The position numbers were made by a program, and so were the translations under genes. DNA of 59,248 nucleotides from Clostridia bacterium (GTDB taxonomy: Bacteria > Bacillota > Clostridia > Christensenellales > Aristaeellaceae). The stretch lies in contig JAFRLY010000028.1 in assembly GCA_017431005.1 (NCBI GenBank), positions 1 to 59,248 on the forward strand, in the 5' to 3' direction. A model generated the notes under the pieces. It made no database searches, was not told the origin of the DNA, and was given only the letters and a program-made list of their open reading frames with translations. Positions 16,984 to 21,018 of this stretch are shown piece after piece (the first letter of the stretch is position 1; each line of letters opens with the position of its first letter).

Positions 16984-18423
16984 TTATGAATCCCGGCCGG
17001 CCGTATTCCTGAGCGGGATTCCCTGCCCGCTTTTTTTCCAGTACAGGAGGCAGAGAAGCATATAAATCACCATACCGGTAAACGTCTGCAGGGCAAGCCC
17101 CGGCCAGCCGGCAAGCGGCAGGATCAGCCGGACTCCCCTCACGCCCAGAAACATGGCCGCGCCGATCAGCGCGTAAATGCCGGCATAGCGGAGATATCTG
17201 CCGTAAGGCAGTTCTTTTCTGAGCAGCAGATACTGTACCACCGGAACCGTCATTTCCGCGCAGAGCGTCCCGACAACAGCCCCCATGCTCTTCATGGACG
17301 GAATCAGCAGAGCGTTGACAATCAGATTGATAACTGCGCCGGAGCAGACGCTCCTGACGAAAATATAATCCCGTTTCTGCGGAAGCACCACCTGTGTCCG
17401 GATGACATTGGCAAAGCCGATCATGATTAAGGTGAATGCGAGCGGTGCCATCAGCTTTCCGGAGTATGTGAATTCTGCGCCGTAAAACAGCGGTGCAAAA
17501 TCGTCCGCGACTGCCGCCACACCAAACGCCATCGCGGTGACCATGCAGAGAATCATGCTCATGCTCCGGTCAATATGCCTGCGGATTTCTTCCGTTCTCC
17601 CCTGCTGCTGCATATGCGCCACCTTTGGCATCATGACCGTTCCGATGGCGGAAATAAAACCGCTCAGGCAGTAGATAATCTTCTCCGCATTCTCATACAG
17701 GCCGTTTTCAGAGGTTCCGGCCAGCGCCGTCACCATAACCTTATCCATGGTCCTGTAAACATTTACCGCGAGAACGGAAATGAACAGCACAGCGCACGGG
17801 CGAATATGCTTCAGGCTTTCCCGGATCGGTACGGGATGGTAGCTGACCCGGCCCCGCAGGGAAAGCATGCAGCTCAGATTGCCCAGCATGGTTGCCATGC
17901 TCCAGACGAGCGCATAGATCCAGAGATCCTCCGGCTTTTTTACAAACAGGAATACGCATGCCGCCGCCGCGGATTTGACAAAGGTGTTTCTCAGGGCAAT
18001 CGGCTTGAACAGATCCAGCCCCATCAGACACCAGTCAAAGCTGCACAAACAGCTCACGCTCATCCAGGTCAGCTGCACTGCAATCGCCTTCTCAGCATCC
18101 GCCACCAGGCCAACATAGGCCAGCCATACCAGCAGTGTTGCGCCGGCAACCATCAGCTGCATCTGCCACAGGGCGGAGAAGGTTCTGTCAAGGCCTTCCC
18201 TGTCATCCCGGATCTGGGCAACGGCCCGGACCCCGTAATCGTTCAGGCCCAGCATGCCCACCAGGACAAATATATAGGAAATATTCCATGCATAGGAATA
18301 CAGGCCGACGCCGTCCGTACCGACCGTCCGCGACAAATATGGTGCTGTCACCAGAGGCAGCAGCACCGAGAAAAGCCTGTAAGCAACATTGTAGGCAGCG
18401 TTTTTTCTTGTATTGGTACTCAT
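16984..18423 (-). CDS. Polysaccharide flippase-like membrane protein (Wzx/MOP superfamily)
   Basis: The 479-residue protein has about 12-14 hydrophobic segments. The N-terminal sequence NVAYRLFSVLLPLVTAPYLSRTVGTDGVGLYSYAWN is typical of oligosaccharide flippases that move undecaprenyl-linked glycans across the membrane. No glycosyltransferases surround it, so the substrate cannot be inferred. It starts 7 bases after the mgtE stop, with no strong ribosome site of its own, and is probably coupled to mgtE. That pairing may be fortuitous. Confidence 0.85.
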   Translation of the reverse strand: MSTNTRKNAAYNVAYRLFSVLLPLVTAPYLSRTVGTDGVGLYSYAWNISYIFVLVGMLGLNDYGVRAVAQIRDDREGLDRTFSALWQMQLMVAGATLLVWLAYVGLVADAEKAIAVQLTWMSVSCLCSFDWCLMGLDLFKPIALRNTFVKSAAAACVFLFVKKPEDLWIYALVWSMATMLGNLSCMLSLRGRVSYHPVPIRESLKHIRPCAVLFISVLAVNVYRTMDKVMVTALAGTSENGLYENAEKIIYCLSGFISAIGTVMMPKVAHMQQQGRTEEIRRHIDRSMSMILCMVTAMAFGVAAVADDFAPLFYGAEFTYSGKLMAPLAFTLIMIGFANVIRTQVVLPQKRDYIFVRSVCSGAVINLIVNALLIPSMKSMGAVVGTLCAEMTVPVVQYLLLRKELPYGRYLRYAGIYALIGAAMFLGVRGVRLILPLAGWPGLALQTFTGMVIYMLLCLLYWKKSGQGIPLRNTAGRDS

Positions 18424-18430
18424 GGCAGTC

Positions 18431-19813
18431 TTATCTCAGCCCCGGCAGCAGCGCGCACGCGATCCCGAAGTATACCAACAGGGACAGTGCGTCAACGATT
18501 GTTGTGATAAAGGGACTGGCCATAACCGCCGGATCAAATCCGAGCTTTTTGGCCAGCATGGGCAGCGAGCAGCCGACGATTTTCGCGCAGATGATGGTAA
18601 TCGCCATTGTCAGGCAGACAACCGCCGCCACAAGCACTGTGATGTCCTCATTCTGCAGCAGAAGCCGGTCCACAAGCATAATCTTGCAGAAGCAGAGCAC
18701 AGCCAGGCAGATACCGCATAATGCCGCTGTCCTGATTTCCTTCCAGATCACCTTCGGCAGATCTGAAAAATCCAGTTCGTTCAGGGAGATGGCACGGATC
18801 ACCGTTACTGAGGACTGGGAGCCGGAGTTTCCGCCCGTATCCATCAGCATGGGGATAAAGGCTGTCAGGGCCACCTGCGCCGCAAGCGCTTCCTCGAAGC
18901 TGGTAATGATCAGGCCTGTAAAGGTGGCTGAAACCATCAGCAGCGCAAGCCAGGGAATCCGGTGCTTGAACAGATCGACCGGCGAGGATTTCAGGTAGGT
19001 CTTGTCAGACGGTGTCATACCGGCCATGATTTCCATGTCTTCCGTGACCTCGTCTTCCATGACGTCCATGGCGTCGTCGAAGGTTACGATACCTACCATC
19101 CGGTTATCGCCGTCAACCACAGGAATCGCCAGCAGGTTGTACTTGCTCATCATCTGGGCCACTTCTTCCTGGTCCGTATGGGTGGTTACGGTGATCAGGG
19201 AAGTGTCCATGATACTGTCTATGGTCTGCAGATCGTTCGGAGCCAGAAGCAGGCTCTTGACCGATACAGTTCCCACCAGAAGCCGGTTGTCCAGCACATA
19301 GCAGGTATATATCGTTTCCTTATCCACACCGGTTCTGCGGATCCGCAGAATCGCGTCTCCAACAGTCATGTTGGGCGACAGCTTCACATATTCGGTGGTC
19401 ATCACCGACCCGGCGGAATTCTCCGGATACTGCAGGATTTCATTGATTTCCTTCCGCATTTCCGGATCCGACTGCGCCAGGATGCGCTGCACGACGTTGG
19501 CCGGCATTTCCTCCACGATATCCACCGCGTCGTCGACATACAGCTCATCCATGACCTGCCGGAGCTCGCTGTCGCTGATTCCGCGGATCAGCGCTTCCTG
19601 CTGGTCGCTTTCCATCTCAACAAAGCTTTCAGCGGCAAGCTCTTTTGGCAGCAGACGGAACAGCAGCGGAAGTTTTTCCGTTTCCACGCCGGAAAAAACC
19701 GCTGCAATATCTGCGGGATTCATCGTGACCATGATGTCACGAATCGTTGTGTACTTTTTTTCAGACAGCAGAACCTGTAATGTATTCTCTACAGTGACAG
19801 AATGATCCGCCAT
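18431..19813 (-). CDS. mgtE: Magnesium transporter MgtE
   Basis: MgtE is a magnesium channel gated by its own cytoplasmic domains. The 460-residue protein has the N-terminal helical domain (about 1-130), paired CBS domains (about 135-255, SVMTTEYVKLSPNMTVGDAI and later), a plug helix and five C-terminal membrane segments including the conserved ion-path stretch MLMDTGGNSGSQSSVTVIRA. GGGAGGG lies 7 bases before the ATG. A strong promoter 220 bases upstream and a structured leader with its own small reading frame suggest magnesium- or translation-dependent control. Confidence 0.95.
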   Translation of the reverse strand: MADHSVTVENTLQVLLSEKKYTTIRDIMVTMNPADIAAVFSGVETEKLPLLFRLLPKELAAESFVEMESDQQEALIRGISDSELRQVMDELYVDDAVDIVEEMPANVVQRILAQSDPEMRKEINEILQYPENSAGSVMTTEYVKLSPNMTVGDAILRIRRTGVDKETIYTCYVLDNRLLVGTVSVKSLLLAPNDLQTIDSIMDTSLITVTTHTDQEEVAQMMSKYNLLAIPVVDGDNRMVGIVTFDDAMDVMEDEVTEDMEIMAGMTPSDKTYLKSSPVDLFKHRIPWLALLMVSATFTGLIITSFEEALAAQVALTAFIPMLMDTGGNSGSQSSVTVIRAISLNELDFSDLPKVIWKEIRTAALCGICLAVLCFCKIMLVDRLLLQNEDITVLVAAVVCLTMAITIICAKIVGCSLPMLAKKLGFDPAVMASPFITTIVDALSLLVYFGIACALLPGLR

Positions 19814-19891
19814 GCTCGCTCCCTCCCATTTCCAAGAATGGTCAAAAGCCGAGAGCTTTCAGGCATGTCAGCGGACGATACCCCAGATAAC

Positions 19892-19981
19892 TCAGATCTG
19901 CGGACGGAACAGAATGTCATGGGTCATTCTGCTCCGCGGACTTCGTCCAACCGGTATGCCGCTGCTACTCCCAGCGTCCAT
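19892..19981 (-). CDS. 29-codon leader peptide upstream of mgtE
   Basis: An ATG at 19979-19981 is preceded by AAGGAGG (19989-19995) with an optimal 7-base spacer. The frame runs 29 codons, begins MDAGSSSGIPVGRSPRSR, and stops at TGA (19892-19894), 78 bases before mgtE. It lies inside the mgtE leader. Salmonella mgtA has an unrelated Pro-rich leader peptide, MgtL, whose translation senses magnesium, so a comparable role is reasonable; homology is not claimed. The good ribosome site is direct evidence, translation is inferred. Confidence 0.5.
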   Translation of the reverse strand: MDAGSSSGIPVGRSPRSRMTHDILFRPQI

Positions 19982-19988
19982 GACATTC
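19910..19988 (-). promoter_or_regulatory. Competing stems in the mgtE leader
   Basis: A perfect 11-base inverted repeat joins 19978-19988 with 19912-19922 (CCATGACATTC and GAATGTCATGG on the plus strand). The first arm contains the leader-peptide ATG and its spacer, the second its 3' end. The second arm can instead form a local hairpin CAGAATG/CATTCTG (19910-19916 with 19925-19931). The two structures exclude each other, as expected of a translation-responsive switch. It does not match the M-box consensus that I know. Confidence 0.5.
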
Positions 19989-20042
19989 CCTCCTTATGAA
20001 ATCTGTTTGTTTTATGAATAACTGAGATCCAAAACCTTATCT

Positions 20043-20071
20043 ATTATATCCTTTTTAGGCTTCCCCGTCAA
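20043..20071 (-). promoter_or_regulatory. Promoter of mgtE
   Basis: Reverse strand TTGACG (20066-20071), 17 bases, TATAAT (20043-20048). The -35 box overlaps the stop codon of the upstream LysR gene; transcription should start near 20036. Confidence 0.85.
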
Positions 20072-21018
20072 TCAGAACTCTCCGGCATTTTTTCCGCGGC
20101 GTGCTCCTCCAGATACCTGCGCAGCTCCCGGATATACATTTCCGCCATCTTGCTGAGAATCATGTTTTTCCTGACAATATAACCGATTTCCATCCGGCTC
20201 CCGGCTGTCTGATCATCCGTTCTGAAAGGAACGGCCACATAGTCTGAACCGTTCAGTTCCTCGCAGATAATGCCGGAGCAGAGCGTATATCCGTTCAGTC
20301 CGACCATCAGATTCAGCATGGTCGCCCGGTCTGTCGTTTTGATCGTACGGATATATTCATAGGTGCTCAGAATTTCCTCAGCAAAATAAAAGCTCCCCTG
20401 CGGTCCCTGTTCAAAGGAGAGGCAGGGATAATCCGCCAGGTCCGGAAACGTGATAAAGGGCTTCCCGGCCAGCGGATGTCCCTTCCAGAGATAAACATAG
20501 GTATCGCATGCAATCAGCGGATAAAATTCCAGCTGATTTGCCCGCAGAAACTTTTCCAGCGGCTTACGGTTAAAATCGCTGAGATACAGGATGCCGACCT
20601 CGCTCTTGGAAGAACTGACATCCTCAATGACCTCCCGTGTTTTGGTCTCCCGGATGGCAAATTCATATTCTTCCGTATCGAACTGCTTTACCATTTCCAC
20701 AAAGCTTTTAACGGCAAACGAATAATGCTGGGTGGAAATGCCGAATTTCTTCTTGAGTTTTCCGTTCGGACTGTATTTTTCCAGCAGGCGGTCATATTGT
20801 GCAACGACATGGCGGGCATGCTGAATGAACTCAGCACCGTCGTTTGTCAGGGACATGCCCTTTCCGCCCCGGTTAAAGATCGTTATGCCAAGTTCCTTCT
20901 CCAGTTCCTGTACGGCGCTCGTCAGCGACGGCTGGGTCATAAAAAGCACTTCCGCCGCCTTGTTTAGCGACCCTTCTTCAGAGATTACAATCGCGTAATG
21001 CAGCTGCTGTATGGTCAT
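20068..21018 (-). CDS. LysR-family transcriptional regulator
   Basis: The 316-residue protein has the N-terminal winged helix (MTIQQLHYAIVISEEGSLNKAAEVLFMTQPSLTSAVQELEKELG, broken here only by reading through the family signature) and a C-terminal periplasmic-binding-like effector domain. GGGGAGG precedes the ATG at 21016-21018. The effector is unknown. It faces away from cca and its end contains the -35 box of mgtE, so mgtE is probably partly cotranscribed with it, but regulation of mgtE by it is not shown. Confidence 0.92.
   Translation of the reverse strand: MTIQQLHYAIVISEEGSLNKAAEVLFMTQPSLTSAVQELEKELGITIFNRGGKGMSLTNDGAEFIQHARHVVAQYDRLLEKYSPNGKLKKKFGISTQHYSFAVKSFVEMVKQFDTEEYEFAIRETKTREVIEDVSSSKSEVGILYLSDFNRKPLEKFLRANQLEFYPLIACDTYVYLWKGHPLAGKPFITFPDLADYPCLSFEQGPQGSFYFAEEILSTYEYIRTIKTTDRATMLNLMVGLNGYTLCSGIICEELNGSDYVAVPFRTDDQTAGSRMEIGYIVRKNMILSKMAEMYIRELRRYLEEHAAEKMPESSD

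Follow-up and report, generated by a model that had tools for sequence, protein, structure and literature searches.

A conserved upstream reading frame and recurring RNA pairings before mgtE in Clostridia: a candidate leader-peptide attenuator

The window analysed here is a stretch of 59,248 nucleotides from a Clostridia bacterium of the family Aristaeellaceae (assembly GCA_017431005.1, contig JAFRLY010000028.1), the minus strand of which carries mgtE behind a strong promoter and a leader of approximately 220 nt up to the mgtE ATG. An earlier note on this DNA had proposed this arrangement, together with a 29-codon frame behind an AAGGAGG site, a perfect 11-base stem between the start of that frame and its 3' end, and the ability of one stem arm to join a local hairpin instead. 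All of these features were found at the positions given in Table 1: the two 11-nt arms, A and A', are 100% complementary in the window, A' also lies within the inverted repeat of the local hairpin, and this hairpin was present in both the free and the A-blocked folds of the window leader. The B' strand, GCTCTCGGC, is by eye also complementary to the region of the mgtE Shine-Dalgarno (SD) sequence. Of 200 dinucleotide shuffles, 199 folded less well than positions 20036-19780 (z -2.84), and no terminator-like site was found in the window leader.

Table 1 Features of the mgtE leader in the window.
Feature	Position	Strand	Basis
Promoter TTGACG-17 nt-TATAAT	20043..20071	-	11 of 12 consensus matches
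SD sequence AAGGAGG of the leader frame	19989..19995	-	GGAGG invariant in 31 aligned genus rows
Leader frame (uORF), 29 codons, MDAGSSSGIPVGRSPRSRMTHDILFRPQI	19892..19981 (ATG 19981, stop TGA)	-	Open reading frame
Arm A, over the uORF start codon	19978..19988	-	Inverted repeat; A x A' mean z -2.59 in 63 leaders
Arm A', close to the uORF 3' end; partner A or local hairpin arm	19912..19922	-	Inverted repeats, folds
Local hairpin competing for A'	19905..19936 (arms 19925-19936 and 19905-19916)	-	12-nt inverted repeat, 92%
CGA, uORF codon 13, conserved rare Arg codon	19943..19945	-	Codon comparison
C/D strand, uORF codons 8-14; predicted partner past the uORF stop	19940..19960	-	Duplex, folds
D'/C' strand (TCGTCC ... 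ATGCC); predicted partner uORF codons 8-14	19862..19878	-	Duplex, folds
B' strand, complementary to uORF codons 3-5	19848..19856	-	Duplex for L002
Anti-SD arm CCATT; partner AATGG (19830-19826) adjoining the mgtE SD	19837..19841	-	Folds
mgtE SD sequence	19822..19827	-	Sequence
mgtE, 460 aa, MgtE_N + CBS + MgtE domains	18431..19813 (ATG 19813)	-	ORF, domain scan

The -35 box of the promoter shares bases with the stop codon of a LysR-type regulator gene (20068-21018, minus strand) that ends within it, and read-through from this gene could give a second mgtE transcript. On the other side, a polysaccharide-flippase-like gene (Polysacc_synt, weak MurJ; 16984-18423, minus strand) begins 7 nt past the mgtE stop, so that the leader may govern this gene too.

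MgtE is a main Mg2+ channel in Bacillota, and the M-box is the known RNA control of mgtE in that phylum. The earlier note had recognised no M-box here, and a comparison of the window leader with Rfam bore this out: there was no match at gathering score, and a search at E values up to 10 yielded two weak matches, cow-rumen-4 and S10-Clostridia, with the M-box (RF00380) absent. Both matches fell below their gathering scores and were taken as chance. Identification of the leader as an M-box was rejected for want of a covariance match.

A DNA search with the window leader was performed over 61 genomes, comprising the window's own and 60 relatives. Of the 37 genus genomes, among them the window's own, 32 contained the leader at E <1e-17, and no match was obtained in the 24 genomes of other families; the five genus genomes with no match are 54-71% complete. 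All 32 leader cores sit upstream of mgtE, and a TTGA(C/T)...TATAAT pair was seen in 32 of 32 aligned rows. The frame was not lost in these close relatives, being open in every one of the 32 leaders with its stop at codons 25-29 (sd 1.05), and the stem was retained as well, with A:A' keeping 93.1% of pairs across 30 distinct rows. The +1 frame ends at codons 8-78 (sd 14.4), and the +2 frame always stops at codon 4, within an invariant block. The genus alignment (A1) contains 31 of the 32 leaders, L021 having been left out as near-identical to L022. Long inserts separate the C' and mgtE SD regions in L010, L017, L018, L019, and L021-L024, and some of these appear self-complementary by eye.

Codons 1-6 and 8 of the upstream ORF (uORF) are invariant in the genus, including their wobble positions, and codon 7 differs in one row, at its first position. 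The RNA itself is therefore under constraint, in addition to the peptide. Such fixation would also be expected of a metal-binding riboswitch, possibly a pseudoknot combining A:A' with a pairing of the C/D and C' strands, in which the RNA would bind Mg2+ and the frame would be secondary; the narrow range of stop codons in the genus argues against this reading, which we consider unlikely. The window leader and L013 carry a +1 shift ahead of A', and the COOH-terminal part of the peptide is thus not conserved.

In the genus, standard pairs make up 94.8% of the 629 cells of the A:A' helix and its inner short hairpin, compared with 38-57% in a slid control. A shuffle control revealed no covariation of A:A' within the genus (94.8% vs 94.7%), the changes being one-sided and the 5' arm nearly fixed. 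In 18 of the 32 genus leaders, codons 2-14 showed stronger downstream pairing than shuffled sequences did (p up to 0.05); the other 14, mostly those with long inserts, gave no better-than-shuffle pairing of these codons. With arm A blocked, 25 of the 26 genus leaders listed had at least 11 of the 40 nt of codons 2-14 paired past the uORF stop, the exception being L017, and in many of these folds the pairing encloses a local hairpin in which A' is bound. In the 32 genus leaders the mgtE SD was predicted to be poorly accessible (means of 0.23-0.28), and nearly equally so whether the ribosome was absent or was placed at the start, at C/D, or at the stop, so that the fold calculation itself shows no switch. 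The proposal of the earlier note that translation selects between mutually exclusive stems received support from the comparative pairing data described below, but the folding calculation did not separate the states.

We built a covariance model of the leader core for a search of the order, of the kind the earlier note had suggested for related Clostridia. Twelve of 396 genomes matched, eight of them in the genus. The four matches outside the genus are in other families and are weak (E of 0.003-0.01), which by E value would suggest chance, but each of the four is located directly upstream of mgtE. At these loci the A:A' stem is changed on both sides (GGACACCAUGG with CCAUGGUGUGCC, with one bulge, or UAAUAAAUGG with CCAUUUAUUA), and related frames at mgtE loci of the family include MDEGGRCLTTEGVPRSC and MDDGGRCMSADGVPRS. 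Since other families also possess both the frame and the A:A' pairing, in altered sequence, their presence in the window is not attributable to chance. The related frames are of the MDAGSSSGTxxGRS or the MDDGGRCxxxxGVPRS type.

For classification, an upstream ORF behind an SD counted as a leader if residue 2 or 3 was acidic and codons 9-18 included CGA in frame. Among 56 loci of the family, which include a few distant MgtE homologues, 28 had the leader, 12 had an acidic ORF without that CGA, and 16 had neither. We also scanned named genomes, taking the best 80 of 568 relatives, mostly metagenome-assembled genomes (MAGs) of rumen and gut Clostridia and including Ruminococcus bromii ATCC 27255 and Anaeromassilibacillus An172; because only the best 80 were taken, this set leans toward close MgtEs. 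The leader was present in 49 of 78 of these loci, compared with 0/75, 1/72, and 0/78 control windows, and an SD-preceded ORF acidic at residue 2 or 3, regardless of CGA, in 60 of 78 (controls, 5/75, 2/72, and 3/78); no acidic upstream ORF was found in 18 of 79. In the window peptide, Asp2 is the sole acidic residue among the first 20. The classifier also accepts the probable non-leaders L134, L096, and L097, and at L093 it picked another ORF over the leader present there. A variant, MDYRSS(N/T/S)TDA.., with an in-frame CGA precedes mgtE in Lachnospiraceae MAGs (L121, L124, L126, L129). At L165, L172, and L176, acidic upstream ORFs (MDGRSCGKDSEASCHK.., MEDRSCSRDAKDCCHK..) with no CGA in codons 9-18 precede mgtE, and these may represent another leader class.

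The association with mgtE was also apparent from the leader side. A search with the pattern ATGGAYGCNGGNAGYDSYRRYGGC, blind to mgtE, matched 6 of 391 genomes of the class, namely the window's own and five others, and in all five the match lies upstream of mgtE and has CGA at codon 13 or 14. SD-preceded ORFs starting with M[DE]x[GSAN] accounted for 69 of 132 upstream of mgtE (112 loci), compared with 0 of 25 on the opposite strand and 0 of 35 farther upstream. On an MgtE tree of 79 rows, the labels leader, leader-like, M-box, and bare require 17 changes, compared with a shuffled mean of 28.2. Three spirochaete MgtEs with leader-like ORFs (L138, L150, L160) were placed among those of Clostridia on this tree, which suggests that spirochaete mgtE may have been acquired by transfer together with the leader; misbinning is possible for all three, given that they come from MAGs, and one is also long-branched.

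To characterize the frame and its pairings, we used a wider set of 68 leaders, chosen for their ORF length and for matching a pattern at residues 2 and 4, features which therefore provide no evidence within this set. The first Arg codon and A:A' were outside the selection criteria. A few near-copies are included, and the numbers of distinct leaders used were 65 for B:B' and for A:A' per leader, 66 for codon positions, 63 or 58 for segments, and 52 or 47 for swaps. Loci L077-L105 (29 loci) were part of the ORF scan and lie outside the wider set. Over codons 2-8 of 66 leaders, entropy was 0.84, 0.89, and 1.45 bits at the first, second, and third codon positions, respectively, which supports the identity of the leader frame as a coding frame, as judged by comparison of sequences.

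The first Arg in codons 9-16 is encoded by CGA in 52 of 58 peptides, compared with 16 of 132 for the other Arg codons of the same peptides (Fisher's test, 1.6e-25, with related sequences treated as independent). In-frame CGA is present in codons 9-16 of 51 of 66 leaders, compared with 11 of 66 for the +1 frame and 10 of 66 for the +2 frame; the remaining 15 leaders have no in-frame CGA in this interval. The codon before CGA varies (GGN, CCN, an acidic codon, or others), and the codon after it is AGT in 31 of 51 leaders and otherwise TCN, CGA, AGA, or others. Given that the neighbouring codons vary, conservation seems to act on the codon more than on an RNA motif. These data also bear on the riboswitch reading: it is favoured by the codon usage at Ser5 (AGT for 35 of 39 Ser codons in the 68-leader set), and it is opposed by the greater variability of third codon positions in the wider set and by the retention of CGA in frame amid changing neighbours, even though AGT so often follows. 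An RNA-only interpretation is thus weakened by the codon-position entropies and the in-frame CGA.

Across nine genes of the window, CGA accounts for 10 of 217 Arg codons, fewer than any other. ARAGORN named the Arg anticodons ACG, CCG, and TCT in the window's genome, which is 85% complete, and found no TCG among 49 tRNA match sites, one of which is unassigned. The ACG anticodon of tRNA-Arg would be converted to ICG, which reads CGA through a weak inosine-adenine wobble. In a his-leader assay in Salmonella, decoding of CGA was slower than that of CGU or CGC (PMC4046918). We can therefore envisage, as a rather doubtful extension, that the ribosome itself serves as the Mg2+ sensor through decoding of the one conserved CGA: low Mg2+ would slow this codon still more, and the mgtE switch would be set by the ribosome halted there, with no aptamer involved. 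Were this so, the reading of CGA would amount to Mg2+ sensing through codon-anticodon stability.

Ten leader segments were compared by mean z in every pairwise combination (45 pairs), using 63 leaders or, for some pairs, 58. A x A' was the strongest pair, with 73% of leaders below -1.5 and none above 1.5. Next came C x post (-1.21, post being the region past the uORF stop) and mid x SD (-1.13, mid being the region ahead of the mgtE SD), then C x mid (-1.06), D x post (-0.94), and post x mgtE SD (-0.78), with the remaining pairs at -0.60 or weaker. A:A' was weak or absent in several leaders of the GVPR type (L064, L065, L067, L069, and L074; z of -0.8 to +1.0). The B:B' pairing occurs in duplexes of many genus leaders, yet its mean z over 65 wider leaders was -0.16, and it was rejected as a general switch. 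No general pairing of uORF codons 2-6 was detected in the wider set, and these codons could form the loop of a pseudoknot if the leader were a riboswitch.

In a swap test, partners were exchanged among 52 distinct leaders (47 where C' was involved). Own partners were better than swapped ones for A:A' (z -1.35), C/D:C' (-0.73), and SD:C' (-0.82), with four control pairings between -0.15 and +0.13. What shifted was the mean; the own partner was the single best in just 12 of 52, 3 of 47, and 5 of 47 leaders, respectively. Comparison of the leaders thus suggests that three predicted pairings recur while sequences change: A:A', uORF codons 7-17 with the stretch past the stop, and that stretch with the mgtE SD. 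Given that the region between the uORF and mgtE can be paired either with codons 7-17 or with the SD, the latter two would constitute the halves of a switch.

These pairings run through the frame and so bear on the possibility that it encodes a small peptide acting in trans, on MgtE or elsewhere. MgtR and MgtS are such peptides, and the conserved NH2-terminal residues would suit this role. We nevertheless hold it to be very improbable, given that approximately 15 conserved residues are followed by a divergent tail, that no hydrophobic stretch is evident by eye, and that two peptides scanned gave no Pfam match.

The M-box precedes mgtE in 6 of the 79 named loci scanned with Rfam, again from the best 80 of 568 (L141 begins inside mgtE and was not scanned). 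It was found at 1 of 61 loci with an acidic upstream ORF (L161) and at 5 of 18 without (Fisher's test, 0.002), or, with CGA also required, at 1 of 50 and 5 of 29 (0.02), values that serve only as a guide given that related species are not independent. No M-box was detected at leader-bearing or leader-like named loci in two batches (0/20 and 0/20), nor in 19 family loci chosen mostly for lack of a leader. L161, the one named locus with both elements, presents an M-box, then Clostridiales-1 RNA (RF01699), then a leader-like ORF (MDADSSGT...), and then mgtE (L161:1945-2299). The leader appears to occupy the place that the M-box holds in related bacteria and to form a translation-based switch of a kind not previously described.

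A similarly built attenuator might instead sense something other than Mg2+, such as Arg-tRNA charging, a ribosome-targeting drug, or the general translation rate. The position kept at the codon level is indeed an Arg codon, and one that was slow in the his-leader assay (PMC4046918). We judge this alternative improbable, however, in view of the presence of mgtE downstream in all five mgtE-blind matches and of the M-box, an Mg2+ riboswitch, ahead of mgtE at 5 of 18 leaderless named loci.

On balance, the leader is probably a cis-acting leader-peptide attenuator of mgtE that operates at the level of translation initiation, with low Mg2+ as the most likely signal. This reading is supported by the coding frame, the conserved start of the peptide, the CGA codon, the three pairings, the mgtE context, and the small overlap with the M-box. 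We infer Mg2+ sensing and ribosome stalling from gene context and leader anatomy, and we likewise infer translation of the frame in the cell as well as the signal, halt site, direction, and timing of the response. The uORF would be translated during mRNA synthesis, and A:A' would shut its start once the ribosome had finished and gone. Codons 7-17 (C/D) would be able to pair with C', the stretch past the uORF stop, and C' not claimed by C/D would pair with the mgtE SD. A ribosome that halted or dropped off in the first codons would keep A:A' open and leave C/D free to take C', and mgtE would be translated (ON). If the uORF were read through, a slow step at CGA would keep the ribosome on C/D, C' would seal the mgtE site, and A:A' would re-form after full reading (OFF). 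Low Mg2+ would act by weakening ribosomes on acidic or hard-to-decode early codons.

The closest parallel is mgtQ of Salmonella (mgtCBRU), likewise a short uORF with Asp2 (and Glu5) ahead of an Mg2+ transporter gene (PMC8092293). Exclusive stems control the mgtB ribosome site there, 1:2 and 3:4 being alternatives to 2:3, with 3:4 hiding the downstream site, and translation of the uORF and that of the transporter are inversely related. That uORF, however, comprises 8 codons positioned between mgtC and mgtB of a proteobacterium (PMC8092293), whereas the mgtE frame has 20-35 codons (52 in one instance), lies in a 5' leader of another gene, contains an in-frame CGA, and is accompanied by a stem that closes its own start. 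The mgtL leader peptide of mgtA in E. coli and Salmonella shares early acidic residues and control of an Mg2+ transporter (PMC11282234). It acts through Rho-dependent termination, and its EPDP motif is absent from the window peptide, just as a terminator-like site is from the window leader. As judged by eye, the peptides, phylum, and transporter gene of both systems differ from those of the window.

The M-box (ykoK leader) resembles the leader in preceding mgtE but has no match in the window and is nearly exclusive with the leader. In a Mycobacterium M-box with a translational platform, the uORF SD and the downstream SD compete for an anti-SD (PMC12810186); that system is driven by the M-box aptamer, which is absent in the window. 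The mgtE motif SRC-65-1 is also a structured element before mgtE, with SD and start codon in a stem, but was compared by description only and is reported from Thioalkalivibrio alone, with no uORF described in the available text (PMC11109978).

Among the matches listed for the mgtE-leader and CGA-stalling literature, as represented by titles and abstract openings and with subscription papers mostly outside, there was no published account of an mgtE uORF element. The only mgtE motif found there was the Thioalkalivibrio candidate (PMC11109978), and a term search of the main text of a paper on structured RNAs of the human microbiome returned no mention of mgt or Mg2+ (PMC8040213). If the proposed attenuator is real, mgtE would be subject to a second, translation-based control across gut and rumen Clostridia, perhaps carried with mgtE into spirochaetes, and Mg2+ control by leader peptides would have arisen outside enterobacteria as well. 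With a rare CGA kept at the level of the codon, Mg2+ sensing through the ribosome's own decoding would become testable.
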